This document shows positions 43,269-62,660 of a DNA stretch of 64,000 nt, piece by piece. Positions within the stretch are counted from its first letter, which is position 1. Each line of letters opens with the position of its first letter. Both the position numbers and the translations under genes were made by a program. The DNA is from Gluconobacter albidus (lineage in GTDB: Bacteria > Pseudomonadota > Alphaproteobacteria > Acetobacterales > Acetobacteraceae), in contig NZ_BEWL01000009.1 of the NCBI RefSeq assembly GCF_002723915.1, positions 1-64,000 of the forward strand. The letters are read 5' to 3'. The notes below the pieces were generated by a model. It was not told the DNA's origin and ran no database searches. It saw only the letters and a list, made by a program, of their open reading frames with translations.

Positions 43269-43315
43269 CTCCTGTTTGGTGACAGGAGGATAGTTGGGCT
43301 GCGTTGTGCGACTGA
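43269..43315 (-). promoter_or_regulatory. TCAGTCGCA box and SD hairpin (gene starting at 43260)
   Basis: TCAGTCGCA on the minus strand occupies 43307-43315, 46 nt before the start codon. In between, CTCCTGT and ACAGGAG form a 7-bp inverted repeat whose 3' arm contains the ribosome site. Confidence 0.55.
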
Positions 43316-43322
43316 GAAGTGA

Positions 43323-43337
43323 CCTATCAATGATAGG
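43323..43337. promoter_or_regulatory. Palindrome in a divergent promoter region
   Basis: CCTATCA-A-TGATAGG is a perfect 7-bp inverted repeat between the divergent genes at 43260 and 43480. It is a plausible operator; no regulator is assigned. Confidence 0.4.
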
Positions 43338-43479
43338 ACGAGGATTCTATCTCGGAAGAGGCACTGTGCTCCAGCGGCGAATTGTCTCAGCAGGGCGCTA
43401 CTATTACTTTTCTCCGGATAGCCTTTTAACTCGCACGAAAAGAGCGGAACTCCAGCGTGTAATTTGGGGATGACTGAAT

Positions 43480-44424
43480 ATGACTGACAAGCATACGACC
43501 ATAAGGAAAATTTGCGTTCTGATCACTCTCGGCGCGATCATGGTGCTTCGTTGTTCTGTGGCGTTAGCAGGCGTCGAAGCTATTCAGATCGAAAAATCAG
43601 GTATCAAACCAAGTATTATCGTACCAGGCGTTCATGCTCCTGTCTTCGGTATCGAGGCGCCAAGTGCAGCCGTTTTCGTAGGAAAATCAGTCCTTCTTTC
43701 TGAAGGGACGGAAGCCAACCAAGACGCAAAGACCCAACCTGAGAAACTCGAACATTCCGTACCTGAAATCGTACTTAATCCTACCGTGGTCGCCTCGTGG
43801 GTCAACGGCATAGATATCGAGAAACTTAAGTCCAGACTGCAACTACATCTCGCATGTTATACTGGACAGGAAATGCTTCGAGCACGTAATACAGATATGT
43901 ACTCGCGTGTACTGTTGAACATGAAGACAGCACAAGCAGCAGAATTTATTCTCGAAATGCCATGCCCGCAGCCAGCAGGTCTATCCCGTGACGACCTCGT
44001 GCGCACTGAAGCGCAAGAATCAGGCGTCACGATCAAGCGGCTTGAACATCTCAACGAGTGGGAGGCGGTCCAAAAGGAAATTCCGGATGACTACTATCGT
44101 GACTCAATCGTTGAGATGCTCAAACGACCTGAGGAGAACCTTTCGTCGCCCCCATTCGTGTCCTTCGTCCAAAACGGACAGTACGATGAATTCGACGCCT
44201 GGATCAGAAATCGTAACGTCACGGTAAGCCAGAAGAAAATGTATGAGTACGATGTCACCAAACGAACCAGCCAGATGTATCGAGCTATGACCCCATATGT
44301 ACGATCTGGCGGTGCAGTCATTTTAATCGGAGCTGCTCATCTTGGCGGCCCAGATGGATTGGCGGCTCTACTGCGACGCGATGGGTATTATTTGCGTCCG
44401 ATCACACTGCCCGAGCATAAATAG
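43480..44424 (+). CDS. TraB/GumN-family exported protein
   Basis: 314 residues with a hydrophobic N-terminal export signal (ICVLITLGAIMVLRCSVALAG). Family features: VPGVHAP early His, LLSEGTE acidic motif, and VILIGAAHLGGPDGLAALLRRDGY near the C-terminus, matching the GxxH...G block of GumN/TraB (PF01963) proteins, which are thought to be metal-dependent peptidase-like. It stands alone between the mutasome and ars operons. Confidence 0.65.
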   Translation: MTDKHTTIRKICVLITLGAIMVLRCSVALAGVEAIQIEKSGIKPSIIVPGVHAPVFGIEAPSAAVFVGKSVLLSEGTEANQDAKTQPEKLEHSVPEIVLNPTVVASWVNGIDIEKLKSRLQLHLACYTGQEMLRARNTDMYSRVLLNMKTAQAAEFILEMPCPQPAGLSRDDLVRTEAQESGVTIKRLEHLNEWEAVQKEIPDDYYRDSIVEMLKRPEENLSSPPFVSFVQNGQYDEFDAWIRNRNVTVSQKKMYEYDVTKRTSQMYRAMTPYVRSGGAVILIGAAHLGGPDGLAALLRRDGYYLRPITLPEHK

Positions 44425-44556
44425 ACTATTCACGCTAAATGGCCGCCTTCGAGCCGATTAGGGGGGTAAACGGAATGTCTGGTCTGAGCGGAAAAATTGA
44501 GGAAGCCGACAGTCGTGATCTCCGTTTCCTCACATAGGATAGCTTGACTTACGACG

Positions 44557-44580
44557 ATATATCCACAATTCTGGATATAT
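44557..44580. promoter_or_regulatory. ArsR operator overlapping the arsR start codon
   Basis: ATATATCCA-CAATTC-TGGATATAT is a perfect 9-bp inverted repeat whose right arm runs into the arsR ATG (44579). Its position suits autorepression and implies a very short or absent leader. Confidence 0.7.
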
Positions 44581-44932
44581 GGACACAGAATCTACCCTCG
44601 CAGCCCTGAGCGCCCTGTCGCAGTCTACACGGCTGGAGATTTTTCGCCTGCTGGTGCGCTACGAGCCGGACGGATTACCCGCCGGAGATGTCGCGCGGCA
44701 TCTCAATGTCCCGCAGAACACCATCTCGGCCCATCTCGCCACCCTGGCCCGTTCCGGGCTGCTGACCTCGGAGCGCCATAGCCGGCTGATCGTCTATCGC
44801 GCTTGTCTTCCGCGCCTGCGAGACCTGATGCTCTTCCTCGTCAGGGACTGCTGCGCGGGCAGTCCCGAACTCTGCGCGCCCCTGGTCGCAACCCTGTCCT
44901 CCTGCTGTCCCTCCCCGGAAGCCCGATCATGA
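44579..44932 (+). CDS. arsR: ArsR-family arsenic-responsive repressor
   Basis: 117 residues. Winged helix with recognition segment LPAGDVARHLNVPQNTISAHLATLARSGLL. Cysteines lie at the C-terminus (RDCCAGSPELCAP and SSCC), a likely As(III) site outside the classic alpha-3 CVC motif, as in several alternative ArsR types. It shares an ATGA overlap with arsC. Confidence 0.88.
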   Translation: MDTESTLAALSALSQSTRLEIFRLLVRYEPDGLPAGDVARHLNVPQNTISAHLATLARSGLLTSERHSRLIVYRACLPRLRDLMLFLVRDCCAGSPELCAPLVATLSSCCPSPEARS

Positions 44933-45351
44933 CCATCACGATCTACCACAACCCGGCCTGCGGCACGTCGCGCAATGTGCTGGCACTGATCCGCAACAGC
45001 GGCGAGGAGCCTCGGATCATCGAATATCTGAAAACCCCGCCCAGCCGTGCGGAACTGGTCAGTCTGATCGCCCGTATGGGCGTTCCGGTGCGCTCGATCC
45101 TGCGGGAAAAGGGTACGCCCTTTCACGAACTCGGCCTCAATAATCCGGCCCGGAGCGATGATGCGCTGATCGACGCCATGATCGCGCATCCGATCCTGAT
45201 GAACCGGCCCATCGTCGTCACCCCGCTGGGTGGGGCACTCTGCCGTCCGTCTGAGGCGGTTCTGGACATCCTGCCCAACCCGCAGAGAGGCGCTTTCGTC
45301 AAAGAGGACGGGGAGAAGATCGTCGATGAATCTGGCAAGCGGATCATCTGA
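44929..45351 (+). CDS. arsC: Arsenate reductase, glutaredoxin-coupled ArsC
   Basis: 140 residues. [15 protein letters not shown] carries the catalytic Cys; [21 protein letters not shown] is the family C-terminal substrate region. Reduces As(V) to As(III), which ArsB exports. Overlaps arsR and abuts arsB (stop and start share a base). Confidence 0.92.
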
Positions 45352-46646
45352 TGCTGGCGCTTCTGATTTTCGTTGTCACGCTGGTTTTTGTCATATGGCA
45401 GCCTCGGGGGCTGGGTATCGGCTGGAGCGCAATGGCCGGTGCCGCCGTGGCCCTGGCGGCTGGTGTGATCCACTGGCACGACATTCCTGTCGTCTGGCAC
45501 ATCGTCTGGGACGCGACTTTCACCTTCATCGCGCTGATCGTCATCTCGCTGTTGCTGGATGAGGCCGGATTCTTCCATTGGGCCGCGCTGCACGTCGTGC
45601 GCTGGGGCAAAGGGCGAGGCCGGACGCTATTCCCGCTGATCGTGGTGCTGGGAGCGGCCATTGCGGCGGTTTTCGCCAATGATGGTGCGGCCCTGCTGCT
45701 CACGCCCATTGTCATCGCCATCCTCACTCAACTTCGCCTGAGCCATACCGCAGCCCTGGCCTTCATCATTGCGACCGGCTTCGTCGCAGACACCACAAGC
45801 CTGCCGCTGGTCATCTCCAATCTGGTGAACATCGTCAGCGCCAATTTCTTTGGCATTGCGTTCGATCGCTATGCCGCGATCATGGTCCCTGTCGATCTGG
45901 TAGCACTTGGCGCAACGCTTGCCGTTCTGTGGTTGTGGTATCGGCGGCAGGTGCCTGCGACCTATCCCGTCGCCGAACTGCCAGCACCCGCCACGGCCAT
46001 TCGTGACCACCATGTATTCCGGGCGGCCTTTCCGCTGTTGGCCCTGGTTCTGGCGGCCTATTTCCTGACCGCACAGTTTCATATCCCGGTCTGTGTCGTA
46101 GCCTGCCTGGCCGCCGGAATCCTCTTACTCGTCGCCGGATATGGTCGGGTCATCCCTGTTCTCAAGGTGCTGCGGGGCGCACCGTGGCAGATCGTGATCT
46201 TCTCGCTGGGTATGTATCTGGTGGTGTATGGCCTGCGCAATGCCGGGCTGACCGACTACCTTGCAACCGCACTGATCTGGCTCGGCCATCAGGGACCGTT
46301 CACCGCTACGATCGGCACCGGCTTTCTGGCGGCTGTTTTGTCGTCCATCATGAACAATATGCCGAGTGTGCTGGTCGGGGCGCTGGCGATCCAGCAGGCT
46401 CACGACATCACGCCGCTGACCCGTGAACTGATGGTCTATGCCAATGTCATCGGTTGTGACCTCGGCCCCAAATTCACCCCGATCGGCAGTCTCGCCACGT
46501 TGCTGTGGTTGCATGTGCTGGCATCCAAGAAGCATCGGGTCACATGGGGGCAGTATATGAAAGTGGGGCTGGCGATCACCCCGCCTGTCCTGCTGGTCAC
46601 GCTCGCAGTGCTGGCCCTGTGGTTGCCTGCCATCAGCCGCCCGTAA
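45351..46646 (+). CDS. arsB: Arsenite efflux permease ArsB
   Basis: 431 residues, about 11-12 transmembrane helices. [44 protein letters not shown] and [20 protein letters not shown] are diagnostic ArsB segments. It exports As(III)/Sb(III) across the inner membrane. Confidence 0.93.
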
Positions 46647-46669
46647 TGTGCAAAGGAAGCAAGACCGCG

Positions 46670-46804
46670 ATGACCGAACCTGACGACACGCTCCGCCCGC
46701 ACCCGGATTATCGCCACGGGATCAATGGCGCACGGCAGCCCAAAGTAGCGCTGCCAGCGATCGTCATCGTCGAGACTGGTCTCCCGCAGGTTCGGGCCAC
46801 ATAG
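46670..46804 (+). CDS. Short ORF between arsB and the acetyltransferase gene
   Basis: 44 codons (MTEPDDTLRPHPDYRHGINGARQPKVAL...). An AAAGGA sequence lies about 14 nt upstream. No family recognised; it may be a remnant or simply intergenic. Confidence 0.25.
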   Translation: MTEPDDTLRPHPDYRHGINGARQPKVALPAIVIVETGLPQVRAT

Positions 46805-46822
46805 AACAAGAGGCAACGAGAC

Positions 46823-47362
46823 ATGTCCGTTCCGAGTATCCGCCAGGTACGTGCTGCTGACGCCCCCGCCATCGCAGCGATTTATGCCCATCACGTCGAA
46901 CATGGCACAGCAAGTTTTGATTACGAACCACGCTCACTTACCGAGACTGAGGAGAAGATCGAAAGTGTGCGGGCACGAAATTGGCCCTTTCTCGTCGCAG
47001 TGCAAGACGAACAGGTGGTGGGCTATGCCTATGCCACGCAATTCAGGGACAGGCCCGCCTACAGCTTCACATGCGAGAATTCGATTTACGTCCACCCCGA
47101 CCACATCAGGCAAGGTGTCGGTTCAGCCCTATTATCCGATCTGTTAGGTCACGCCGAAGCATCGGGCTTTCGCCAGATGATTGCGGTGATCGGTGGCGGT
47201 GAACCCGGATCGATTGCACTGCATGCGCGCCATGGATTTGCCCATGCTGGGCAGATGCGTTCGGTGGGCCGCAAATTCGGCCGCTGGCTCGACACGTTCT
47301 ACATGCAGGCCTCGTTGGGCGCGGGCGATGGTGACGACCCGCTGAAGGAACCACAAACATGA
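46823..47362 (+). CDS. GNAT N-acetyltransferase, ArsN/PAT-like
   Basis: 179 residues. Resembles phosphinothricin acetyltransferase: [31 protein letters not shown], acetyl-CoA loop [19 protein letters not shown] and IALHARHGF. In ars operons such genes (ArsN) are linked to resistance against arsinothricin or organic analogues. Substrate here is inferred from position between arsB and arsH. ATGA overlap with arsH. Confidence 0.82.
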
Positions 47363-48054
47363 CTGACACGCTCTCGCCCCTAAACTCGGAGTCTCTTGAT
47401 CCACTCGATCTTGCAAAGCTCGAACCAGCACAGCGCACCACGCACGCACCGCGTATCCTTCTGCTCTATGGCTCTTTGCGACCCCGATCCTTCAGCCGCC
47501 TATTGGTGCTTGAGGCGGAACGCATCCTGAAAGTGCTGGGGGCCGAAACACGGGTGTTCGACCCGACCGGCCTGCCGGTAGCGGATTCTGTGCCCGCGAC
47601 CCATCCGAAAGTGCAGGAACTGCGGGAACTCTCGATCTGGTCGGAAGGTCAGGTCTGGTGCAGCCCTGAACGGCACGGCAACATGACGGCAGTATTCAAA
47701 AACCAGATCGACTGGCTACCTCTGACCGAAGGCTCAATCCGCCCGACGCAGGGCCGCACGCTGGCGGTCATGCAGGTTTCGGGTGGGTCGCAGAGCTTCA
47801 ATTCCGTCAATGCCCTGCGGGTGCTGGGTCGGTGGATGCGGATGTTCACCATCCCCAACCAGTCCAGCGTACCAATGGCCTATACGCAGTTCGGTGACGA
47901 TGACCGCATGAAGCCGTCCCCCCTTTATGACCGGATGGTAGATGTCATGGAGGAACTGATGAAATTCACATGGCTGCTGCGCGACCGGGCCGACTATCTA
48001 GTGAACCGCTATAGTGAACGCAACTCGGAACACCGCTTGCCTGAAAAGCTATGA
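47359..48054 (+). CDS. arsH: ArsH organoarsenical/NADPH-dependent FMN oxidoreductase
   Basis: 231 residues. Flavodoxin-like FMN loop [13 protein letters not shown], the ArsH signature [28 protein letters not shown], and [25 protein letters not shown]. It oxidises trivalent organoarsenicals. Last gene of the operon. Confidence 0.93.
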
Positions 48055-48188
48055 GCCGGGCTGGCGCGTATTTCTGGCACACGACGTCTGCTTACCAAAA
48101 CCCTAAGCGACCCACCTTACGACCGAGATGAGGCGTAAGCCGACATGCGGCTAGTCCTTTCTGTTGGGGACAGCATAAGTTCCATATC

Positions 48189-48292
48189 CCTGTCGTAAAA
48201 CAGATGATTCCCGACAGGGGGGAACGCCAGTCTGGCGCACTAGCATGTTTCCTGGACAAAATTTCCATGAGGTGTGGCGACAAACCCTGTCG
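48189..48292. other. Putative res (recombination) site
   Basis: Within the 282-bp gap before the resolvase, CCCTGTCG occurs three times: 48189-48196 and 48285-48292 direct, and 48213-48220 inverted. The first two form an inverted pair. Direct plus inverted sub-sites upstream of a serine recombinase are typical of res. Confidence 0.45.
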
Positions 48293-48336
48293 GATTGGTA
48301 TAAGTGACGGAAACGGCAAAATTAGGGTTTTCCGAC

Positions 48337-49002
48337 ATGCTTATCGGCTATATGCGCGTTTCTTCTGTCGATGAGCGCCAGTCAGTGGATTTGCAGCGCG
48401 ATGCTCTGGTGCAGGCGGGCGTCGATGAGCGACACATCTTCCAGGACAAGGCCTCTGGAGCACGCGATGACAGACCCGGTCTTAAAAAATGCCTCTCTTA
48501 TATAAAGAGTGGTGACACACTCGTTGTCTGGAAGCTGGATCGGCTGGGTCGATCTCTTCCGCATCTCCTGACGATCATAGAAGATCTTAAGGCGAGATCC
48601 GTATCTTTCCGTTCCTTAACCGAACAGATGGACACAACAACGTCTCATGGCGAGCTGATGTTCTCCTTGTTTGGCGCCTTGGCTCAATACGAACGCGCTC
48701 TGATTCATGAGCGTGTCATGGCAGGGCTTGCGGCCGCAAAACGTCGAGGCCGAATAGGCGGACGGCCTCCGTCAATCAGTCAGGAGCGTTTGGACATGGC
48801 GCTCGACTACCTCAACAAGGGTGAGAGTAAGCTCTCCGTTGCGCGACGTCTCACAATTCCACGCACAACCCTCTTGAACACTCTTGAGCGGATAGGCTGG
48901 CAACCACGCTCAGAGAGTGAGGAAGGCGACGGTGATGTTGACGAGCGTACCGCAGAAAACAATGAGAAGAAGCCGCTCAACCGCCGCAGACGACAGGCCT
49001 GA
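48337..49002 (+). CDS. Serine recombinase, resolvase/invertase family
   Basis: 221 residues from ATG 48337 (MLIGYMRVSSVDERQS with the catalytic Ser). KLDRLGRSLPHLL and EQMDTTTSHGELMFSLFGALAQYERALIHER are family blocks; a C-terminal helix-turn-helix (SVARRLTIPRTTLLNTL) is followed by an acidic/basic tail. It probably resolves plasmid multimers or belongs to a lost Tn3-like element that carried the ars genes; no transposase is present. Confidence 0.87.
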   Translation: MLIGYMRVSSVDERQSVDLQRDALVQAGVDERHIFQDKASGARDDRPGLKKCLSYIKSGDTLVVWKLDRLGRSLPHLLTIIEDLKARSVSFRSLTEQMDTTTSHGELMFSLFGALAQYERALIHERVMAGLAAAKRRGRIGGRPPSISQERLDMALDYLNKGESKLSVARRLTIPRTTLLNTLERIGWQPRSESEEGDGDVDERTAENNEKKPLNRRRRQA

Positions 49003-49110
49003 TGAGGATGGGTTAGACCGCAGATACTTCACCCGCGCATACCCGGCCAAGATCAGACTGATCCCAACAATCCCGGATACCATGGCCACACGGTAGGACA
49101 ATGCCGTCAT
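48910..49110 (-). CDS. Small membrane protein, possible
   Basis: 66 residues with two hydrophobic segments (VAMVSGIVGISLILAGYARV and ERLLLIVFCGTLVNITVAFL). It overlaps the resolvase 3' end in antisense and has only a distant AAGGAG site, so its reality is uncertain. Confidence 0.35.
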   Translation of the reverse strand: MTALSYRVAMVSGIVGISLILAGYARVKYLRSNPSSSGLSSAAVERLLLIVFCGTLVNITVAFLTL

Positions 49111-49170
49111 TGCTGGCGTAGAAATCTGGCTTCTCCTTCAAGGTGTGTCCGCAATGGACACACCAGTAAG

Positions 49171-49455
49171 TCACATTCCCAAAGCACGACGATAGATGTC
49201 CAGAAGGGTTTCCTGTTCCTCAACCTGGGCAGGCTCCATTTTCCGAAGCTTCAGGATCTGCTTAATGATCTTAACGTCGAACCCGGCCGACTTGGCTTCG
49301 CTGAAGATGTCCTTGATGTCTCCGGCCAACGCCTTTCGTTCTTCTTCCAGGCGTTCAACCCGCTCAATGATGGATCTCAGGCGATCCGCTGCAATTCCTC
49401 CGGTCTGAACGGTGGTCTCAGCAGATGCTGTGTCCTGTTCTTCATGTGCCAACAT
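49171..49455 (-). CDS. GapR-like DUF2312 nucleoid-associated protein
   Basis: 94 residues. IAADRLRSIIERVERLEEERKALAGDIKDIFSEAKSAGFDVKIIKQILKLRKME is the DUF2312/GapR coiled-coil core, which clamps overtwisted A+T-rich DNA in alphaproteobacteria. A plasmid copy beside repC may act on replication or topology. AAAGGAG precedes it, and the TCAGTCGCA box lies 39 nt upstream. Confidence 0.88.
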   Translation of the reverse strand: MLAHEEQDTASAETTVQTGGIAADRLRSIIERVERLEEERKALAGDIKDIFSEAKSAGFDVKIIKQILKLRKMEPAQVEEQETLLDIYRRALGM

Positions 49456-49494
49456 ACAGTTCTCCTTTCACTCGCCCAATCTGCCACCTCAGTC

Positions 49495-49503
49495 TGCGAC
49501 TGA
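49495..49503 (-). promoter_or_regulatory. TCAGTCGCA box (gapR-like gene)
   Basis: TCAGTCGCA on the minus strand, 39 nt before ATG 49455. The + strand shows it inside a perfect palindrome CTCAGTC-TGC-GACTGAG. No SD hairpin is seen in this leader. Confidence 0.55.
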
Positions 49504-49507
49504 GGCG

Positions 49508-50752
49508 TCAATGGTAGGTTCGGTCGGTCGAAAGATCCGAGGCCAGCCCATAGAGGGTCCGGTCCAGAGCCAGCGTTCCGTCAAGGTGACGTTCGATCAT
49601 GGCCCGAAGCAGGCCACCAGCCGACCGCACTTTCCCTTTGCGGGACTTCGCGGAAATCACACAGACGGCGACGGCGGCCTCGTATCGGCCCATGACGCTG
49701 CACGCCTGGCGCCAGGCATGAGAGGAAATTCCCAGAGAACCTGTGAGCATCTCGACGGCCTCGATCAGCTCGGCCTCATGTGGGCGACTGCTGGTGCACA
49801 GGTCTCGCAAGTCAGGAACAAGCTGAAGAAGGAAATTCGGTCCGGCCTTGAAGCCCCGAAGCGGTGAGGCCTTGGAACGGGAGACACTGTCAGACCCAAC
49901 TACTCCTTCCTCTATGCCAACGCCGGCGTAGCCGGCTCCGCTTACAGTAACTTTAGTTATAGTATTTGGGTTTGTATCAGTATTGTGGGGTCCATCAGTG
50001 CGCCCCATGGGGTCCATTTCCACAGGGTCAGCCCCTGCAATCATGGCCTCCAGACGCTCGACCAAACCCTCCATCTGCTCAACCAGCGGCGACAGGATGT
50101 CCAGGTCGTGGTCATTGCCACGCAGTGCCAGGAGCTGATGCCCGTTCTGCTGGATGCTCATGACCGTCGGCCTGTCAGCCGTCGTCTCCAGGGCCGTGGC
50201 ACAAAGGGCCGCAATGCGGCGACCTAAGACCATGGCTCTCTTATGCAGACGCTTTCCTTCGCGTTCCCGCTCTCTGAAGGCCTCAACGCGTTGGAGCATT
50301 TCGTCGTAGCGCCGAGACAGCGGCGACAGATCGAACCCGTATCCCTCCAGGATCGCACCATTGCGGCCGTCGCGTCTCAACCAGCGCTGCTGATTCGGAC
50401 TGTCGCGCATGATGATCCAGCCTAATTCGCTGAGGCCGCGAAGCCAGCGTTTGACCGTGGATCTCTCGATCCCGAACCGCTCGCAGATGTCGCGATTGCG
50501 CACAGAGCAGATGGTGAGATTGTCGTCTTCCCAGTCCACTGGCTTCGTGCGGCTGATCAGAAAGCCAAGCAGATCGGACTGGCGCGGCTGAAGGCCAAGC
50601 GCCCGGGGCTCCGTATGCAAAGCGCTGAGGATCTGGGCCTTGGTAGCACCGCTGCGGGGCAGGGCCTCACACTGCATTTCGGCCAGGATCATGGCCGGAG
50701 TAATGCGTCTCACCCCGGCCTGATGGGGGTCATGCGAAAGCGAATAGGTCAT
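49508..50752 (-). CDS. repC: Plasmid replication initiator RepC
   Basis: 414 residues from ATG 50752 (MTYSLSHDPHQAG). The N-terminal winged-helix domain (LGFLISRTKPVDWEDDNLTICSVRNRDICERFGIERSTVKRWLRGLSELGWI) is characteristic of RepC of repABC-type replicons; a C-terminal RepC domain follows a variable linker. No repA/repB lies adjacent; partition is supplied by the distant parA locus. An upstream in-frame start (50839) exists. Confidence 0.87.
   Translation of the reverse strand: MTYSLSHDPHQAGVRRITPAMILAEMQCEALPRSGATKAQILSALHTEPRALGLQPRQSDLLGFLISRTKPVDWEDDNLTICSVRNRDICERFGIERSTVKRWLRGLSELGWIIMRDSPNQQRWLRRDGRNGAILEGYGFDLSPLSRRYDEMLQRVEAFREREREGKRLHKRAMVLGRRIAALCATALETTADRPTVMSIQQNGHQLLALRGNDHDLDILSPLVEQMEGLVERLEAMIAGADPVEMDPMGRTDGPHNTDTNPNTITKVTVSGAGYAGVGIEEGVVGSDSVSRSKASPLRGFKAGPNFLLQLVPDLRDLCTSSRPHEAELIEAVEMLTGSLGISSHAWRQACSVMGRYEAAVAVCVISAKSRKGKVRSAGGLLRAMIERHLDGTLALDRTLYGLASDLSTDRTYH
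49915..49985. other. Candidate oriV: A+T-rich stretch inside repC
   Basis: A locally A+T-rich run (TTACAGTAACTTTAGTTATA and following) sits in the variable linker of repC. In repABC-family plasmids the origin lies within repC in such a stretch. No iterons seen here. Confidence 0.45.
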
Positions 50753-51323
50753 GGAAAACTTCTCAGGATTTCGGGATTTCCGAAGCCCTGCTCTCCAACC
50801 CTTCAAACAAGCCCCTCCCGTTTGCAAAAACTCTTGCATTCGAAGCTGAAATGTAGGATTGAAAATTCAGCAGATGAATTTCAATCCAGTTCAATCGGTT
50901 TGGCGACCGATGGGACTACGTTCTTAGGGCCTCGTGAAAGCGGGGCCTTAAACGTATCTGGGCTCTGGCTAACTCACTCAAACAATTCCTTCTTCAAGCC
51001 CAAATAGGCGATTTGCCTTTATGCTTCTCCTGTAGCGAGAAAGAAAGGCCCTTTTCAGAGTCTCCCGGCCGCTGAAACATCGCCACAAGGATCTGCGACT
51101 TTCATCTGTAACATGAGTCTGTTCCACGCCCGCAAGGGAGCGATGAGAACAAAAGCGGCCTTCCGTAATTTTTTTTCACAATTCGTTAAGGAAACCTTTT
51201 TTCTTTGCGGCCGCCCGTGCTACGAGCGAACAAGAGTAATGATAAAGGCAAAGTTAAACTTGACGATGCTGTACCGGTTTTGCCTTTATCTCTCGAAGAG
51301 TTTTGTAGTTGTAAAGGTGCCAG
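50753..51323. other. 571-bp region upstream of repC
   Basis: No convincing gene. It probably carries the repC promoter and leader. A variant box AAAGTCGCA (minus strand, 51094-51102) resembles the T[CT]AGTCGCA boxes but lies 341 nt from the repC ATG. Long leaders with antisense RNA control are usual for repC, but I cannot identify one here. Confidence 0.35.
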
Positions 51324-51647: not shown

Positions 51648-51663
51648 GATAGAAGTTTCCCGT

Positions 51664-51709
51664 TAAGTCGCAGAAGCTTGCGCAATTCTCTGATCTCCAC
51701 TCAGGAGAT
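51664..51709 (+). promoter_or_regulatory. TAAGTCGCA box and SD hairpin (lipoprotein gene)
   Basis: TAAGTCGCA at 51664-51672, 43 nt before ATG 51716. ATCTCC (51693-51698) and GGAGAT (51704-51709) pair; the 3' arm is the ribosome site. Confidence 0.5.
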
Positions 51710-51715
51710 TCACAT

Positions 51716-52015: not shown

Positions 52016-52020
52016 AAGAA

Positions 52021-52046
52021 AAGCGGCCCTCTGGGGCCGCTTCCTG
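52021..52046. terminator. Hairpin between convergent genes
   Basis: AAGCGGCCC and GGGCCGCTT pair around TCTG; A-rich before and T-rich after, so it could end both the lipoprotein gene and the leftward gene ending at 52049. Confidence 0.7.
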
Positions 52047-52048
52047 TT

Positions 52049-53586: not shown

Positions 53587-53589
53587 AAA

Positions 53590-53638
53590 GGGTCTCCTGA
53601 AGAATTAAGGAGACCCTATCGAGCTAAGATGCGACTAA
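53590..53638 (-). promoter_or_regulatory. TTAGTCGCA box and SD hairpin (DsbC-like gene)
   Basis: TTAGTCGCA on the minus strand at 53630-53638, 43 nt before ATG 53586 and overlapping the stop of the preceding gene. GGGTCTCC (53609-53616) and GGAGACCC (53590-53597), given as minus-strand 5' and 3' arms, form an 8-bp stem containing the ribosome site. Confidence 0.6.
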
Positions 53639-56402: not shown

Positions 56403-56405
56403 CAC

Positions 56406-57953
56406 TTATAATCCCGGGCTTGCGCTGGCTGACGCAGAAGGGGACGGCCGGAAAACAGAGGCGACGGCCTCAACCGCCTTTTTCACCAGCTCACGGGCCT
56501 TCTCTGAGAGCTCTTCGACCATGCTGGTCCCGGCTTCCTTTCCCGGCACCCCCTTGGCGAGTTCGCCAATCTTGCTGTCCAGGCCGTTGAAGCGCTGCTC
56601 GACCTGAGCCTCTGTTCCTCGCTGCACCCCAATATCGGCAGCTTTCTCACGATGAGCGCCGTAGGCCGCGACCGCCTCACCCGCTTCCTTCAACTGCGCT
56701 GCGAACGCCTGGTTGGTGCTCCGCTCGGTTTGAAATCGCGATTGCAGGCCTTCATGCCGACCTCCCGGCCGCATTTCGCTCAACACACCATCCATGCCGT
56801 TTGGCTCTGATTTCGCGGCCTCAGCGATCTCCCGCATGACCGAAGACGCCGGAGTATTCTGCACGGCTTCCAGAGCACTTTGCGCCTTCAGGCCCAGGGC
56901 CTCGGTCTGATCCAGATGGTTGGCGTCGGCCTGCTGCCCATGGGCAGCATTCATCGTCTGCGCCTTGGCCATCCAGTTAGACCCGGGCGTGACGGCCTGC
57001 TGCACGGCCTCAGGACGAATGGCCTGTGCGAGACGGGTAAAGAGACCCGGGCCGCGCACCTGATAAACGACCTTCTCATCGGCTTCCTGTTCAGGGGGTT
57101 TCGCCTCCTCCTTCGCCGGTCCAGGTCTATTCTGCGCTTTAGCTCCGGTATCAGCTTTGCTCGATGCCTCTGGTGCTGCCTTCTTGTTCTCGGTTGCGCC
57201 AGCGTTTGCCGGTCGCTCAGGGCGGTGGGCCTGTGGCTGGTCTGCTCCCGGCTCCCCGCCTCCAGGAGAGGCGTGCATCCGTGGATCGGCCTTTTCTTCC
57301 GAAGAGGGACGAGTTGAGGTGTCACCCTCTTGCAGACGTGGATCCTCACTGTCCTCTGGCTCAGGGGCGTCCGGAATATCATCGAAAGGTGGTGGCTCAG
57401 GACTTCCATCAAACTCGGAGGCCGGTTCCACAGGTCTGACGTCTGCCTGTTCGTCCTGTGTAACGGTCTGCGCGTCAGGGTCGTGTGTCGAGAACCGTGC
57501 GGCAGTGGCAACCCGCTCGGACAGGGATTGAAGAACCTCGTCAATCTCCGGATTACCCTGCTGATCGGCCCCCATGGAGGCGACGCGCTCCGACACAGAG
57601 CGCACCGTGTCCACCAGTCGCTGATCCATCAGATCGGCGGTCTGCCCCATAAAGCCCTTGAGGGTCTCGGACGTCAGGCCGGGCACGCTCATGGCACGCT
57701 GTGTCATCTCTTCGCGCAGCCCATTTTCCTGCGGCAGAACCGGTCCGACCAGACGCTCGGCGTCCTGAAGCACATAGGCGACGTTGGTCCGAAACCGCTC
57801 ATTGGCCGCAAGGTCCGGATCCTGATGCTTCTGGGCAAGCAGGGTGATCTGCCCGGCCAGTTGGGGCGCATCCTTCTCAAGTTGGGGCCGCACACGCTCC
57901 AGGCTCTGGAAGACGTCCGCGAGGGCAGGGATCTGCGTATCATTCTGGGCCAT
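56406..57953 (-). CDS. Pro/Glu/Ala-rich linker protein of the transfer operon
   Basis: 515 residues from ATG 57953. Helical N-terminal domain, a low-complexity Pro/Glu/Ala middle (about residues 140-300) and a helical, Ala/Glu-rich C-terminus. No family recognised; no membrane segment. It lies between TraW-like and DotA/TraY genes with 1-3 nt spacing, so it is likely a transfer component or substrate. Confidence 0.6.
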   Translation of the reverse strand: MAQNDTQIPALADVFQSLERVRPQLEKDAPQLAGQITLLAQKHQDPDLAANERFRTNVAYVLQDAERLVGPVLPQENGLREEMTQRAMSVPGLTSETLKGFMGQTADLMDQRLVDTVRSVSERVASMGADQQGNPEIDEVLQSLSERVATAARFSTHDPDAQTVTQDEQADVRPVEPASEFDGSPEPPPFDDIPDAPEPEDSEDPRLQEGDTSTRPSSEEKADPRMHASPGGGEPGADQPQAHRPERPANAGATENKKAAPEASSKADTGAKAQNRPGPAKEEAKPPEQEADEKVVYQVRGPGLFTRLAQAIRPEAVQQAVTPGSNWMAKAQTMNAAHGQQADANHLDQTEALGLKAQSALEAVQNTPASSVMREIAEAAKSEPNGMDGVLSEMRPGGRHEGLQSRFQTERSTNQAFAAQLKEAGEAVAAYGAHREKAADIGVQRGTEAQVEQRFNGLDSKIGELAKGVPGKEAGTSMVEELSEKARELVKKAVEAVASVFRPSPSASASASPGL

Positions 57954-57954
57954 G

Positions 57955-59148
57955 TCAGCCTCCGGGATTGACGTTTGGTGATGGGATGGGGGCAAGTCTC
58001 TTGGCCTCGCTTTCCTCCTCGTGCTGCGCCACCTGTGTTGCGGCGAGCGAAGACTGGAAAAGCCCGAGACGGTAAGTCTGCAAGGCGAGGTAGTTGGCCT
58101 GAGCCTGCTCGATCGCCAGCTCACGCATGACCGTTGCGGGTGGCATCTGCTGAAGGTTCTTGTTCCAGGTCACGCCTGAGACACGGCGATTGACCTCAAG
58201 GCTCATCGACGTCAGCCACGAGGCCTGATCCGAGACAGTCATGCCCTCGGCCTGCATCTCGGTTTTCTGCACATCGGTCAGGTTGATCGACGGGATCTCC
58301 AGCGAGGTGATGAAATTCATCACGTAGCGCGAGAGCGACATGCGGGCGTTGTAGGCGCGACGACGCAACGCAGCCTCGCGTCCGGACGTGGACGTAAGCT
58401 GCTCGCCGCGCAGTGCGGCAGGGGCTACAGGCTGGATAAGTGTGGTGCTGTAGTCGTTGGCAGCGTCCACACCGCCGTCAGCCGACAGGGTGTCCTGCCC
58501 GAACAGGGAAATGGCCCTTTGGTCCGCATTGGGCAGACGGGAAAGAGCCGAGCACAGACCGGCTGTGACGTCTTCCTGCGAGCAATAGCGCCGCCCATGC
58601 AGCGCCATGCTCGATGCCACACCCTGGCCTTTGCCATAGTAAGACGGCGTTCCAGCGTCGGCCTCTCCGCGACTGTCCGTAATCGTCGCAATCGCGCGGG
58701 TTGCCGTTCTGGCTGACTGAGACGCGCCCTGGGTGGCCTGCGACCCGTCGATCCCTGTGCAGAACTCCGGGTTCATCATGTGCTCGTCGCGGATCGTGGT
58801 ATCCTGCTGGCGGCGAGCGAACTCCGCCATCGCTGTATTGGACGCATCCGCGATGCGCTGTTGAGCAGCGACACCGGCCTTTTCGTAGTTACTGAGCTGT
58901 GTGAAGCCCTTGTTCAGCATGGAACTGACGGAGTTCGGGTTCGTCAGGCTATCCATTGAATTGTTCAACTGAGACGTCAGCGTCTTGGTCATCGACGACA
59001 GCGCGGAGCCCGTGAACTTCTGCAACGCGCTGATGGCCGCGACGACCGCCGCTTCACCGATGAACGCATTCGCAGGCTTCGGCATCGCGACAAGAACTGT
59101 CGTGCAGAGGAGCATCGTTGCGATTGTTGGATTGAGGCGGATCTTCAT
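57955..59148 (-). CDS. TraW-like exported transfer protein
   Basis: 397 residues from ATG 59148 (overlapping the upstream stop as TGATG). Signal peptide MKIRLNPTIATMLLCTTVLVAMPKPANA, then helical segments with several cysteines (MNPEFCTGIDG, RRYCSQEDVTAGLC). Length, signal and position beside DotA/TraY fit IncI-type TraW; identity not certain. Confidence 0.6.
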   Translation of the reverse strand: MKIRLNPTIATMLLCTTVLVAMPKPANAFIGEAAVVAAISALQKFTGSALSSMTKTLTSQLNNSMDSLTNPNSVSSMLNKGFTQLSNYEKAGVAAQQRIADASNTAMAEFARRQQDTTIRDEHMMNPEFCTGIDGSQATQGASQSARTATRAIATITDSRGEADAGTPSYYGKGQGVASSMALHGRRYCSQEDVTAGLCSALSRLPNADQRAISLFGQDTLSADGGVDAANDYSTTLIQPVAPAALRGEQLTSTSGREAALRRRAYNARMSLSRYVMNFITSLEIPSINLTDVQKTEMQAEGMTVSDQASWLTSMSLEVNRRVSGVTWNKNLQQMPPATVMRELAIEQAQANYLALQTYRLGLFQSSLAATQVAQHEEESEAKRLAPIPSPNVNPGG

Positions 59149-59690
59149 CAGAATACCCCGTCCAGAGAGGTGCTGGTGTAGCCGGTCGGCAGACGTGGCT
59201 CCCCCCGGACATACCCGTTTGAATCGCCATTCCCGAGGCTCCCGGCCGCAAGCTGCGGACCACTGCCGCCAAAATTCAGGGAGGGGCACATGAGGCCGTT
59301 TCCGCCTGACAGGCCGAGACCGACATTCACACCGTTCAGGCTTAACCCGCATTGCTGGGCTGCTCCGACGGTATTGTCCCATTCGGTCTGGGCGGCCGAG
59401 CAGATTTCTCCTTCGACCTGCCCGACAACGTCATTAATCAGCGCTGCCGGGTTCGCAATGTTCGTCAGGAGATTGAGGCCCGTTCCATTGAAAAACTTGT
59501 CCAGGCAGGAGAGGCCACTGACACTTTCAGGCTGCTTCTCATAAGCATTGTTAGCCTTGATGCGCCCGTTTACGGCGTCCGCTGCGGCCTGCGTGAGGGT
59601 TGCGCAGGCCTGGCTACCCTGTGTTGCGGCAGATGCGCTCAGAGGGACCGAAAGAGTAGCGGCCACGAAAAGAAAGGATGCCCGTTTCAT
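59148..59690 (-). CDS. Exported cysteine-containing transfer-operon protein
   Basis: 180 residues. Signal peptide MKRASFLFVAATLSVPLSASA; four to six cysteines in the mature part (SQACAT, LSCLDKFF, GEICSAA, QQCGLSL, LMCPSL) and a Gly/Asn/Ser-rich tail. No family recognised. Coupled on both sides by overlapping stop/start codons. Confidence 0.6.
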   Translation of the reverse strand: MKRASFLFVAATLSVPLSASAATQGSQACATLTQAAADAVNGRIKANNAYEKQPESVSGLSCLDKFFNGTGLNLLTNIANPAALINDVVGQVEGEICSAAQTEWDNTVGAAQQCGLSLNGVNVGLGLSGGNGLMCPSLNFGGSGPQLAAGSLGNGDSNGYVRGEPRLPTGYTSTSLDGVF

Positions 59691-60073
59691 GCGGCCGCCC
59701 TTTCTGCTTCTGGATCGAGAAGGTCGCGCAGAAGCGCGAGACGATCTTCAGAAAAGACGCGCGCGGACAGCTCTGCCCTTTTCTGACTGTCTGTCCATGC
59801 GACCAGTTCAGCACGGCTGGAGACCGCAGATGCTACAAGATCCTCTCCGCCGCTGACGGTCGAGACCACTTCGGAAACAAAGGTCCGTCGCTCCTCGCTC
59901 GGTAAAGACACAAGGAGGTCGGCCAGAGAGGCGATGATCGCCCCGTCCGTGCCGGAAGTGTGTCCATTCCGGACACGGAAATGCTCAAGCAGATTGTGCC
60001 GTGCAAGAGCAAGGTTAGGGGCCAGAGAACTCTGCGGGGTGTCCCTGTGCGGTGTTGGATCGTCTGGTGACAT
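59687..60073 (-). CDS. First gene of the leftward transfer operon, unrecognised
   Basis: 128 residues, acidic and helical (LADLLVSLPSEERRTFVSEVVSTVSGGEDLVASAVSS). Overlaps the next gene (ATGA). It begins a chain of six coupled genes (60073 to 53635). The ribosome site lies in a 9-bp leader hairpin. Confidence 0.6.
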   Translation of the reverse strand: MSPDDPTPHRDTPQSSLAPNLALARHNLLEHFRVRNGHTSGTDGAIIASLADLLVSLPSEERRTFVSEVVSTVSGGEDLVASAVSSRAELVAWTDSQKRAELSARVFSEDRLALLRDLLDPEAERAAA

Positions 60074-60078
60074 GCCTC

Positions 60079-60124
60079 TCTCCTGGGTAAGTCCCAGGAG
60101 AAAAGCAGCTCGATCTGCGACTAA
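60079..60124 (-). promoter_or_regulatory. TTAGTCGCA box and SD hairpin (main transfer operon)
   Basis: TTAGTCGCA on the minus strand at 60116-60124, 42 nt before ATG 60073. TCTCCTGGG (60093-60101) and CCCAGGAGA (60079-60087) form a 9-bp stem with a 5-nt loop; the 3' arm holds the AGGAGA ribosome site. Confidence 0.65.
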
Positions 60125-60127
60125 CGC

Positions 60128-60544
60128 TTATTTCTTCAAAATAGTGACGTGCGCGCGCCCGACCTCGATACGCTCGCCAAGCGGGCTGACTGTGGTGGCC
60201 AGAACCTTGTTCCATTCCCGACCGCCCTGCCAGTCCACGGCCTCACCTGGATCAACGCCCGCACCGTAAGTGACACGGACACCTGATGGAACGATCTGCC
60301 TCACGGCGAACGACAATGGCACCTGATGACCATAGCCAGTCGTCATGCGGAAGTGATGAACCACTTTCGGCGGCTCGGCCTGCACGGATGGCTCTGCGGG
60401 AGGTGCCAGAGAGACTGGTCCCGAAGGGGCTGGCGAAGGAAGGGGCGGGGGCGCATGACTGATCTCGAAGGCCGCTTCAGTCAGCATTGCTTTGGGCATT
60501 GCTGGAGCTGGCTGCACATGGGCGGGAGGCAACATTACAAACAC
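60128..60544 (-). CDS. TcpQ-domain (PilL-like) protein
   Basis: 138 residues from GTG 60544, spaced well from GGAGAAA (ATG three codons later). A Pro/Ala-rich N-terminal part is followed by VPLSFAVRQIVPSGVRVTYGAGVDPGEAVDWQGGREWNKVL, the TcpQ/PilL-type module seen in pilus and IncI-type transfer proteins. A longer frame upstream lacks a ribosome site. Confidence 0.65.
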   Translation of the reverse strand: MFVMLPPAHVQPAPAMPKAMLTEAAFEISHAPPPLPSPAPSGPVSLAPPAEPSVQAEPPKVVHHFRMTTGYGHQVPLSFAVRQIVPSGVRVTYGAGVDPGEAVDWQGGREWNKVLATTVSPLGERIEVGRAHVTILKK

Positions 60545-60590
60545 TCGGTTTCTCCTGAAATAACTTAATATTCTAAATCGCAGATCGACA

Positions 60591-60599
60591 TGCGACTGA
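60591..60599 (-). promoter_or_regulatory. TCAGTCGCA box (TcpQ-domain gene)
   Basis: TCAGTCGCA on the minus strand, 46 nt before GTG 60544, in the divergent region with the XRE regulator gene (60708). The neighbouring TCGCA...TGCGA is an imperfect inverted pair. No SD hairpin. Confidence 0.5.
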
Positions 60600-60707
60600 G
60601 GAGAGATGTTAAATTCGAACTCAGTTGTCAGGGGCGCTCTCGTAGGTATTTTGCAGTATCCGGACCCGAAGTCCGGTGCGTAAGCCTGCCGAGAGAGAGA
60701 ACTAGCC

Positions 60708-61478
60708 ATGAACAAGAAAACAGAGACGCAGGCAAATGATGCTTCTGTTGAAGGATATCTGACTGAGTTAGGCGATAGAGTACGCGAAGTTCGGGAGAAA
60801 CGGGAACTGAATGTGGTACGAGTCTGCTTTATGAGTGGGCTGTCAGTAAATACAGTTCAGAACATGGAGAAAGGTAAGGCGCCCGCCTACAACTCTCTAT
60901 GGAAACTAATTCAAGGTCTTGAAGAAGTTCCTGAAAACGTATTACCTCCCGACAGACATGAAATATTACCGTTGGAAGGCCAAGCCTCTGATGAGGAGCT
61001 ACAGGTCTGCCTTTCGCTCAGTAAGATATTCGAAAAGAACAGAGCTTCATTGCTTGAAATCCTTTCAGAAGTGGAGAGGATAAAGACAGACCAAACTCTT
61101 AATGAGGGCAAAAAAGTCCCGCCCGACAAGAGACAGCCAGTTCTCGTAGAGCTTGGCGAACGAATACGCGACATTCGCCTGGCCAGAGGCTTGAGCGGTG
61201 CTGACTTGGCTGCTGCCAGCGGACTTCATGCGCCCGCAATCCATCTTATTGAGATAGGAATGCGAAACCCCAATCTCGATACCCTCTTGAAGATTGCGGC
61301 AGCCCTACGTGTACCGACAGCGTTGCTATTCGCAGGCTTTCCGAAGGTAGACGCCACTTTTGCTCTCTTTCGTGTTCGGGGCCTTTACAGCGGAATCCTA
61401 TCCACATCCGAACAGGCAAGGATATTGTTCGATAAACTGGACGTTCTGCAGCGCGTCACGAAAGACGTTATGAACTGA
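60708..61478 (+). CDS. Double-HTH XRE-family regulator
   Basis: 256 residues with two Cro/C1-type HTH domains: residues about 18-70 (LGDRVREVREKRELNVVRVCFMSGLSVNTVQNMEKGK) and about 147-205 (LGERIRDIRLARGLSGADLAAASGLHAPAIHLIEIGMRNPNLDTLLKIAAAL). The arrangement resembles an internal duplication. It is divergent to the TcpQ gene and lies ahead of palindromes at 61483 and 61546, so it is a candidate regulator of transfer. Confidence 0.8.
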   Translation: MNKKTETQANDASVEGYLTELGDRVREVREKRELNVVRVCFMSGLSVNTVQNMEKGKAPAYNSLWKLIQGLEEVPENVLPPDRHEILPLEGQASDEELQVCLSLSKIFEKNRASLLEILSEVERIKTDQTLNEGKKVPPDKRQPVLVELGERIRDIRLARGLSGADLAAASGLHAPAIHLIEIGMRNPNLDTLLKIAAALRVPTALLFAGFPKVDATFALFRVRGLYSGILSTSEQARILFDKLDVLQRVTKDVMN

Positions 61479-61482
61479 AGAG

Positions 61483-61562
61483 ACGATAAGATTATCGTTT
61501 GGTGCGGTTTTTTCTTGCATTACAGGTCTCATCGCTAGATAAGCGTATCGTTCGTAACGATA
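61483..61562. promoter_or_regulatory. Paired palindromes ahead of the second regulator gene
   Basis: ACGATAA-GA-TTATCGT (61483-61498) and TATCGTT-CGT-AACGATA (61546-61562) are perfect 7-bp inverted repeats sharing the half-site TATCGT. The second ends 16 nt before ATG 61578. They look like operators for one of the two regulators. Confidence 0.55.
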
Positions 61563-61577
61563 ACGGTGCGTCTAGCG

Positions 61578-62624
61578 ATGTCTGTAGCTCTCCATCCGTC
61601 ATTTGCCCTGTCCACCCAGGCCTATCTGGCTTCGGGGATGCAGCTTCCGAGTAAGGACCAAGACACCTCTCCTTCGTCTGGACTCTCGCCGTTCGGCCCA
61701 GCCTTGCAAGCACGATCCCTTTTGAAAAAGATGATCGTTCATGGTGTGAATGTTGCGCACATCGCGGCCGCACTTTTCATAAGCCGCCTGGAGATCGAAG
61801 CCATTGCGCGAGAGGAAGGACTTCCTCTCAAGCGCACCGCGCTGAGGAACAGCCCTCGCGCGTGGTCCCTTCTCGACATCAGCCGCCTCAGCCGCGCATG
61901 GGCCGAGGGCGAAGACCTTCCCGCCATAGCAAAGCGCCTCGACCGCACAGTCATGGCCGTTCGCAAGAAGCGCGCCGCCCTCGGCTTGCCCGCACGAGAG
62001 CGCTATGCCGAGGTGGTCTGGACGGACGCCGACGTTGCCACTCTTCTGGCCCACCGTGAGCGTCGCATCGGGCTCCAGCGCATTGCCAAACAGATGGGCC
62101 GCAGTGTCCGCAGCCTGCAACGCAAGCTCATCAGTCTCCAGCCTCCTGCTGAGTCTGTGGCCATTCCCGCTGATCCATCCGTTGTTCTAACCTGGGAGCA
62201 GGCCTCCCGCCTGACACCAGAAGAGCGTCGGGGCCGCAGATGGCAGGTCCGGAACTCACCAACCGGGCTGGTTATCGGCTTCAGCCGGAATGCCTGCACC
62301 ACACGCTGGTCCGTCGAAATGCAGCACGAGCTGGCCATGCGGCATTTTGCTCACCAGTCCCCTGATGCTGTTGCCGAGGACTTCCTGCTGACAGATCGCA
62401 CCATCGTCAGCCAGTCCGGCTGGCTCCATCTGCCGCGGCGCTCCAAGAAAGACATGCGCAAGGCGTTCGATCCCAACCTGTATGAGGTCTATCTGAAGAA
62501 GATGGATTACGTGCGCCGCGAATGCCTCGGCAAGGCCGGGTTCTATTTCTGGACTACCCGCCGTAACGGCCGCCGTATCAGCCGTTTGCACCAGCAGACC
62601 GCCGTCATGCGCTCGGGCGATTAA
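61578..62624 (+). CDS. Predicted DNA-binding protein with repeated HTH-like units
   Basis: 348 residues. Several Myb/GcrA-like helical units are visible: VAHIAAALFISRLEIEAIAREEGL, LPAIAKRLDRTVMAVRKKRAALGL and LQRIAKQMGRSVRSLQRKLISL. The C-terminal half is basic and unrecognised. ATG 61578 chosen over GTG 61566. Probably a transcriptional regulator of the rightward transfer genes. Confidence 0.6.
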   Translation: MSVALHPSFALSTQAYLASGMQLPSKDQDTSPSSGLSPFGPALQARSLLKKMIVHGVNVAHIAAALFISRLEIEAIAREEGLPLKRTALRNSPRAWSLLDISRLSRAWAEGEDLPAIAKRLDRTVMAVRKKRAALGLPARERYAEVVWTDADVATLLAHRERRIGLQRIAKQMGRSVRSLQRKLISLQPPAESVAIPADPSVVLTWEQASRLTPEERRGRRWQVRNSPTGLVIGFSRNACTTRWSVEMQHELAMRHFAHQSPDAVAEDFLLTDRTIVSQSGWLHLPRRSKKDMRKAFDPNLYEVYLKKMDYVRRECLGKAGFYFWTTRRNGRRISRLHQQTAVMRSGD

Positions 62625-62651
62625 TCCGCAAATTTCTCCATTTTTTCAGCT

Positions 62652-62660
62652 TCAGTCGCA
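62652..62660 (+). promoter_or_regulatory. TCAGTCGCA box (dotI-dotH unit)
   Basis: TCAGTCGCA, 35 nt before a 19-codon leader ORF at 62696 and 91 nt before dotI. Confidence 0.5.

Follow-up and report, generated by a model that had tools for sequence, protein, structure and literature searches.

Among the regulators of IncI plasmids are TraB and TraC. In the transposase genes of IS10 and IS50 and in gene e of bacteriophage T4, read-through RNA is silenced by a Shine-Dalgarno hairpin whose left arm lies upstream of the gene's own transcription start. The middle promoters of T4 carry, in place of a -35 element, a MotA box that is centred at -30 and lies 12 ± 1 bp from a sigma70 -10 element, as described in PMC2988021 and PMC6755090, and the alphaproteobacterial sigma70 cofactor GcrA is described as having its sigma-interacting domain at the C-terminus, in residues 108-173 (PMC7403470). 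Here, we report on a TCGCA-containing box that recurs upstream of the type IVB transfer genes of plasmids related to contig NZ_BEWL01000009.1 (C9) of Gluconobacter albidus, of which positions 1 to 64,000 (C9:1-64000, hereafter the window) were analysed. C9 comprises 139,725 bases or 4% of a 3.29 Mb genome in 49 contigs, and the apparatus genes on these plasmids are, by their annotations, of the same kind as those of IncI-type (MPF_I, Dot/Icm-like type IVB) conjugation systems. As read from sequence, it is nearly certain that the box is a promoter element, namely the upstream half of a rigid two-part promoter of the transfer genes, and it is likely that its reader is HTHr, a protein with tandem helix-turn-helix (HTH) units encoded beside dotI. 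Searches of listings of open-licence papers found neither HTHr and its box nor any account of such an element or regulator, in line with the first-pass annotation of the window, which knew of no described element with this sequence.

In order to describe the element, the upstream regions of seven gene families were collected from 77 loci: the window, 68 loci that encode DotI on genome contigs, and eight segments of plasmids with annotation. The core [ACG][GT]TCGC[AG] was found 38-70 nt upstream (40-104 nt for dotI) of dotI in 60/73 cases, of the TcpQ-type gene in 65/69, of opA, the first gene of the main operon, in 59/65, of gX in 56/71, of gY in 44/68, of dotD in 27/33 and of dsbC in 16/16. 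The resulting 327 box sites were reduced at 70% identity to non-redundant sets of 135 sequences for the column analysis and of 137 leaders for the hairpin analysis, the latter without dotI boxes more than 70 nt away. Since only [ACG][GT]TCGC[AG] sites were kept in the 135-sequence set, the conservation of its core columns is imposed by selection, the columns at +17 and +21 being free. With the T of the TCGC core numbered 0, the sole strong columns downstream of the box were +17, with A in 91% of the sequences, and +21, with T in 87%, whose spacing of 4 is that of A-11 and T-7 in the sigma70 -10 element. Both bases occurred together in 110 of the 135 sequences, compared to at most 7.4% at other offsets from 11 to 24. 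The -10 element is mostly [G/C]AnnnT, with G or C at -12 in 102/135 and the TG of an extended -10 in 4%; a weak A/T tract is present at -16 to -13. We did not find a clear -35 element in this set: TTGACA, placed with a 17-bp spacer, matched at 2.16 vs 1.46 of 6 positions, a small excess. By this geometry, the box pointed out in the first-pass annotation is only half of the element, the other half being the -10 at fixed spacing.

This arrangement resembles that of T4 middle promoters, at which sigma is appropriated with the aid of AsiA, in that a putative activator box near -30 (relative to the predicted start) stands in place of a clear -35 and keeps a constant spacing to a sigma70 -10, with 11 bp separating TCGC[AG] and the -10 hexamer in the present case. 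It differs from them in the box sequence, in being plasmid-borne and in the proposed reader, which is built from HTH units instead of the double-wing domain of MotA; no MotA chain was among the PDB matches of an HTHr profile at E 10.

The signal lies in position and replicon, as raw counts of the shorter motifs are not enriched: AGTCGCA occurs 11 times in the whole window compared to a shuffle mean of 10.2, and THAGTCGCA 43 times in the genome (16 of them on C9) compared to 93 for the reversed pattern. Of the 22 genomic matches to the full pattern AGTCGCA-N12-A-N3-T, 18 are on C9 and 4 elsewhere (binomial p ~1e-21). Sixteen of the 18 have the start of an open reading frame (ORF) of at least 40 amino acids 44-96 nt downstream, and the other two (88717 and 93705) have an ATG at +28. 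The wider motif search proposed in the first-pass annotation yielded 13 further full matches on the contig outside the window. Considering all 25 AGTCGCA sites on C9, both A+17 and T+21 were present in 18, one of them in 4 and neither in 3 (15773, 31830 and 36730), which all lie inside ORFs. The closest relatives of the window plasmid are Gluconobacter plasmids, with 95% identity to NZ_CP043045 of G. thailandicus over 88% of the region 49000-64000. On NZ_CP043045 (93 coding sequences, 84% coding), no heptamer was more enriched than AGTCGCA in the interval 25-75 nt before the gene starts, with 12 occurrences vs 0.54 expected (Poisson p 9e-13), and 19 of 25 AGTCGCA sites were intergenic, so that the refuting condition named in the first-pass annotation, a box as frequent inside coding sequence as upstream of starts, does not hold.

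Within the window, TNAGTCGCA was found seven times, at exactly the seven positions listed in the first-pass annotation, compared to a shuffle mean of 2.36 (2 of 100 dinucleotide-preserving shuffles reach 7). Both key -10 bases are present at five of these boxes and one of the two at the remaining two. The first box (TCAGTCGCA, 43307..43315, - strand) precedes a hypothetical gene at 42856-43260 (-), with the -10 AACTAT at 43290-43295 and a predicted start at ~43283. The second (49495..49503, -) serves a GapR-like gene at 49171-49455 (-; PF10073 GapR, E 1.7e-32), with CAGATT at 49478-49483 and a predicted start at ~49471, and the third (51664..51672, +) a small lipoprotein-like gene at 51716-52015 (+), with AATTCT at 51684-51689 and a predicted start at ~51696. 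A DsbC-like gene at 52573-53586 (-) follows the box at 53630..53638 (-), with TAGGGT at 53613-53618 and a predicted start at ~53606. The box of the main type IVB operon (60116..60124, -; first gene 59687-60073, -) has TTTTCT at the -10 position (60099-60104), with T-7 present and A-11 absent, and that of the TcpQ-type gene (60591..60599, -; gene ~60128-60544, -, divergent from the XRE gene described below) has GATTTA at 60574-60579, with A-11 present and T-7 absent. Within the latter promoter, the inverse sequence TGCGA lies 8 nt after TCGCA (60578-60595). The seventh box (62652..62660, +) heads the dotI operon, with CACGGT at 62672-62677 and a predicted start at ~62684, followed by a mini-ORF from 62696 and dotI at 62752-63381 (DotI PF11393, E 2e-47).

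The spacing of 35-46 nt between box and start codon given in the first-pass annotation holds for six of these genes (46, 39, 43, 43, 42 and 46 nt) but not for dotI, whose start at 62752 is 91 nt from the box; the short distance there applies to the ATG at 62696, which opens the mini-ORF running into the dotI start (62696-62755, beginning 40 nt past the box-core T). Loci of Acetobacter, Kozakia and Komagataeibacter likewise have mini-ORFs in front of dotI, their ATG lying 40-56 nt past the box. The weaker match AAAGTCGCA mentioned upstream of repC exists (51094..51102, -), but it does not share the arrangement of the other boxes: it lies 254 nt upstream of repC and has the T of the -10 without A-11, and it was excluded from the set.

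The HTHr gene of the window (61566..62624, +; its start may be the ATG at 61578) adjoins dotI and encodes a tandem-HTH protein with a GcrA-type DNA-binding domain, the proposed reader of the box. HTHr proteins are 348-352 amino acids long, and a profile built from seven copies detected them in 72 of the 77 loci, those seven counted in. Of the five loci without HTHr, one is L013, in which dotI is missing too, and in the other four the contig starts at or just before dotI. Each of four whole plasmids searched carries one HTHr gene. AlphaFold2 modelled the window HTHr with a mean predicted local distance difference test score of 85 and a predicted template modelling score of 0.57, and the model contains four three-helix units at residues 40-80, 98-134, 150-187 and 246-282. 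A profile of 26 HTHr copies matched the GcrA chains 7ye1 (E 1.9e-8) and 5yiu (E 4.1e-6) in the PDB, outside the sigma-interacting domain, and hhalign aligned HTHr to the host chromosomal GcrA with a probability of 95 over 48 columns. PF07750 (GcrA) was found in 9 of the 26 members at E 0.01 or better, the window protein not being one of them, and a scan of the window genome with PF07750 listed no C9 protein at E 10; none of the 26 members matched NCBIfam. Thus, one HTH of HTHr is like the DNA-binding domain of GcrA, whereas the model of the window HTHr has four HTH units compared to one in GcrA. The methylated GANTC sites of GcrA are not shared either, as none of the 25 AGTCGCA sites on C9 is preceded by G, and there is therefore no GAGTC.

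Several HTHr genes show peculiarities of their own. The Gluconobacter and A. estunensis proteins have an extra stretch between the GcrA-like and the last HTH (window 61578-62621, columns 155-210), which is an HTH in the model of the window protein. In A. tropicalis (L015:25527-26958), two neighbouring ORFs both match the HTHr profile and represent a duplicate or a split gene, and in A. orientalis AP018516 (142133-142730), the match to the HTHr of the second plasmid class described below is split in two, and the features annotated over it are an endonuclease and a putative homing endonuclease.

According to the model that we favour, HTHr would bind the box, centred near -27, and would bring the host sigma70 polymerase to a weak -10 without a -35 partner, and the transfer operons and several other plasmid genes would in this way be fired jointly. 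If HTHr were instead a repressor, the box would overlap the polymerase site and the transfer genes would be silent until relieved; the location of the box within the promoter, at about -31 to -22, is a common one for repressors, and conjugation genes are often repressed. Promoters with no clear -35 and so poor a -10 (G/C at -12, hardly any TG) should, however, be very weak unaided, and the rigid phasing of box and -10 in 110/135 sequences would be needless for repression. We thus regard repression as unlikely, and, given that HTHr binds, activation is much the better supported role.

The related plasmids carry lineage-specific versions of the box at orthologous operon heads, namely TCAGTCGCAGAT in Gluconobacter, GGTCGCATGATG-like sequences in Acetobacter, Kozakia and Komagataeibacter, CGTTCGCACC in Roseomonas and Lichenicola, and GTTCGCGCC in Methylocella and kin. 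In 25 loci, boxes of different genes agreed at flanking positions in a fraction of 0.68 within a plasmid (211 pairs) vs 0.40 between plasmids (4,943 pairs), with a permutation p of 0.001, the minimum for 1,000 permutations. Inside the genus Acetobacter there are three box types, each with an HTHr nearest to that of plasmids of the same type: the HTHr of L029/L030 is nearest to Gluconobacter (48-50% identity) and that of L047/L048 to Komagataeibacter and Novacetimonas (69-72%), and those of L015/L032/L046 group together (69-93%). Box type here tracks HTHr and not host genus.

A second code was found on plasmids of another type IVB class (class 2, as opposed to class 1 for the plasmids described so far), consisting of NZ_CP043044, which is from the same Gluconobacter strain as NZ_CP043045 and has a DotI only 28% identical, an A. 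vaccinii plasmid and pGOX1. The HTHr profile matched all three class 2 stretches (E 6e-13 to 7e-12); the PF07750 values of these copies (E 2.5e-5, 1e-4 and 0.07) are below the curated cut-off, and phmmer with one class 2 HTHr gave nothing in the PDB at E 1. No TCGCA promoter was present at the eight heads examined in each of NZ_CP043044 and the A. vaccinii plasmid. Instead, GCACTCACA or GC[AG]C[TC]CACA boxes lie upstream of gX, dsbC and other genes, and the A and T follow them in the register known from class 1. In the stretches L113-L115, both bases accompany 13 of 21 GC[AG]C[TC]CACA sites. Over whole plasmids, CACYCACA-N12-A-N3-T occurs 13 times in NZ_CP043044, 14 times in pGOX1, 5 times in the A. 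vaccinii plasmid and never in NZ_CP043045, with no match to the reversed pattern in any of the four. The counts for AGTCGCA-N12-A-N3-T are 16 in NZ_CP043045, 2 in NZ_CP043044, 2 in pGOX1 and 0 in the A. vaccinii plasmid (reversed: 2, 3, 0 and 1, respectively). With 16 vs 2 and 0 vs 13 matches, two plasmids of one strain, sharing one host polymerase, thus hold their codes apart. In an unbiased pentamer scan at the promoter geometry, TCGCA recurred 11 times in the class 1 locus L018 and TCACA 4 times in the class 2 locus L113, and no pentamer was present more than twice in the Acidiphilium, Martelella, Methylorubrum and P. putida loci. The HTHr profile had no match at E 10 in the Martelella, P. 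putida and A. persici loci. We propose that box and HTHr change together, giving each plasmid lineage a private code by which two plasmids in one cell would be separately controllable; each HTHr of the two G. thailandicus plasmids would then bind only its own promoter type, AGTCGCA or CACTCACA.

An alternative sigma factor for which the box serves as -35 with a short spacer would also account for a two-part element with fixed spacing, and TTCGCA agrees with TTGACA in 4 of 6 bases. This is nevertheless very unlikely: the spacer would be 11 bp, none of the six Sigma70_r2 matches in the genome is on C9, on which no sigma factor domain was found, and two codes in one strain, together with a box type that follows a plasmid protein and not the host, make it improbable that a host sigma factor sets the sequence. 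As far as sequence goes, the -10 spacing, the restriction to the plasmid, the conservation at orthologous operon heads and the box versions within plasmids support the earlier suggestion of a promoter element of a plasmid-wide transfer regulon.

The first-pass annotation had named two candidate binders, HTHr and the neighbouring XRE protein with two HTHs (60708..61478, +). The XRE gene adjoins HTHr in 71 of the 77 class 1 loci, which would fit a role in reading the box. In whole-plasmid searches, however, XRE matched strongly once in NZ_CP043045 and nowhere along NZ_CP043044 and pGOX1, and the A. vaccinii plasmid gave no more than a weak partial match (E 2e-4) within a frame of 1,347 amino acids; HTHr and the promoter geometry are retained in all three of these class 2 plasmids, with a different box. 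In addition, the N-terminal HTH of XRE is absent in Roseomonas, Methylocella and Lichenicola. A residue covariation test, in which XRE was the protein least associated with the box at two of the three positions, did not discriminate between the proteins. XRE does not appear to be a required reader and is a very doubtful candidate, and HTHr is favoured.

On the basis of the sigma70 geometry, RNA is predicted to start near +28, i.e. 28-29 nt after the T of TCGC. We examined the positions of ATG codons opening at least 50 amino acids in 280 non-redundant matches from both classes, for which A+17 and T+21 were both required by the pattern. Besides the main peak at +43 to +56 and an extra peak of 11 at +20, within the -10 itself (CATGAT-type), there were 9 ATGs at +28 and 8 at +29, and the offsets +22 to +27 and +30 to +34 had 0-3 each. 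Known starts, annotated starts and in-frame starts further upstream make up 11 of these 17: six coincide with homology-based starts of dotI (L060, L064, L067, L077, L079 and L082; locus position 10001), two are annotated starts (L013 46020 and L114 27708) and three are in frame upstream of annotated starts (dotI of L019 and two pGOX1 genes). The remaining six are unproven, and at least one (dsbC of L018) lies within a leader. The cluster points to transcription starting at these positions, in which case the mRNAs would be leaderless. In L019, the predicted leaderless dotI start is 24 nt upstream of the annotated one and in frame with it.

A subset of the box leaders contains an inverted repeat with the Shine-Dalgarno sequence in its 3' arm. 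In the window, the repeat GGGTCTCCT/AGGAGACCC (53590..53616, -) covers the Shine-Dalgarno of the DsbC-like gene, its left arm lying upstream of the predicted start, and another (60074..60106, -) buries that of the main operon. In the orthologous leaders of L014, the hairpin of the DsbC-like gene beat 60 of 60 shuffles, and TcpQ had no strong hairpin. Among 101 operon heads chosen by hand from seven plasmid stretches, which served for the comparison of heads and this first hairpin test, the hairpin beat all 60 shuffles in 16/49 heads with a box vs 1/52 without a box in range. In the 137-leader set, strong hairpins (score of at least 17, and reached by at most 3 of 100 shuffles) were found for gX in 12/23, dsbC in 4/7, opA in 7/25, dotD in 5/16, dotI in 3/18, TcpQ in 1/31 and gY in 0/17. 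The left arm of the 32 strong hairpins ends at +25.2 from the box (standard deviation 2.8, compared to 5.0 relative to the start codon), and in 29 of 32 it ends at or before +28, the predicted start. Loop length rises with the distance between box and ATG (r 0.62), and the arm end is nearly fixed (r -0.27). As the arm sequences vary from gene to gene, the hairpin is expected to act at the RNA level and not as an operator. TcpQ, whose upstream neighbour XRE is divergent, has fewer hairpins (1/31 vs 31/106 in the rest, Fisher p 0.0015), as would be expected if the hairpin guards against read-through. The hairpin of the Gluconobacter gX leader ends in a terminator-like T run.

These data suggest that the hairpin, where there is one, probably insulates against read-through. 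RNA from the proper promoter would lack the left arm, which lies within the promoter, and would be translated, and upstream read-through RNA would fold, bury the Shine-Dalgarno and stay silent. This would resemble IS10/IS50 and T4 gene e, in that the left arm is predicted to lie mostly upstream of the gene's start and only foreign read-through RNA would be silenced; here, however, the hairpins stand beside many genes of one promoter set, in a subset of their leaders. A role of the box itself at the RNA level, in a leader element that includes the hairpin, would suit its place in the 5' region and the excess of hairpins beside it, but is most improbable, since the -10 at fixed spacing puts the start downstream of the box and genes with an ATG at +28/+29 would leave no box in their transcripts.

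We estimate the probability of the full model, i.e. HTHr activating the host sigma70 polymerase from a box near -27, with a private code per lineage and silencing of read-through by hairpins, at about 77%. Several results weigh against it. Regarding the element, the full pattern is unenriched genome-wide (22 matches vs 24 for the reversed pattern), its excess being confined to C9, the box is rarer at gY (44/68) and gX (56/71), two of the seven window boxes miss a key -10 base (A-11 in one, T-7 in the other), and no recurrent box was found in loci with weak HTHr matches (Methylorubrum and Acidiphilium). Regarding the reader, the window HTHr itself has no Pfam GcrA match at E 0.01, Foldseek of its model against the PDB gave no match at E 0.001 or better, HTHr did not match the sigma-binding domain of GcrA (the 7ye1 match covers chain 2-88 only and the hhalign match 48 columns), and in the covariation test of protein residues against box bases, the controls DotI and gY had scores at least equal to that of HTHr. 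Regarding the hairpins, they are strong in only 32 of the 137 leaders, with an overall median shuffle p of 0.27, and represent a subset and not a rule; gY, which lies downstream of a same-strand gene, has none in 17, and the lipoprotein gene of L014 has one despite the divergent repC upstream.

If true, HTHr would be the master switch of a large, little-studied group of conjugative plasmids in acetic acid bacteria, Roseomonas and methanotrophs, and the regulons of these plasmids would become readable from sequence. The plasmids would offer natural matched sets of activator and promoter, seemingly without cross-talk in one cell. The takeover of sigma70 promoters known from T4 would gain a plasmid counterpart, and a domain of the cell-cycle regulator GcrA would prove to have been reused for conjugation. 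The wider proposal, that alphaproteobacterial conjugative plasmids carry their own promoter-specificity factor, HTHr, which re-aims sigma70 at a private box, with codes that diversify and keep co-resident plasmids apart and with hairpins as insulators, is in our judgement evenly poised.

Plasmid pGOX1 (NC_006672) of G. oxydans 621H, whose HTHr gene is GOX_RS00540, carries 14 of the predicted promoters, and start-site data for 621H have been published (PMC5756330). That study describes a -35 of ttGnnn and a -10 of nAtnnn, and a term search of its main text matched none of the pGOX1 gene tags tried. The predicted starts are at about 101393, 113325, 119266, 127506, 131402, 136024 and 160363 on the + strand, and at about 5981, 6380, 25383, 51083, 101298, 109380 and 142224 on the - strand. 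For GOX_RS00585 and GOX_RS00645, the predicted transcription start falls on an ATG that is in frame with the annotated start and lies 81 and 111 nt ahead of it, respectively, and both genes may be longer than annotated.

In the window, an insert resembling an arsenic-resistance region (44579-48999), with genes for an ArsR-type HTH protein, ArsC, ArsB and an FMN reductase, followed by a resolvase gene, lies between the box genes at 43.3 and 49.5 kb. A near-identical copy of the promoter of the hypothetical gene at 42856-43260, together with the start of that gene, is present at the other end of the contig (C9 131495, corresponding to window 43313).

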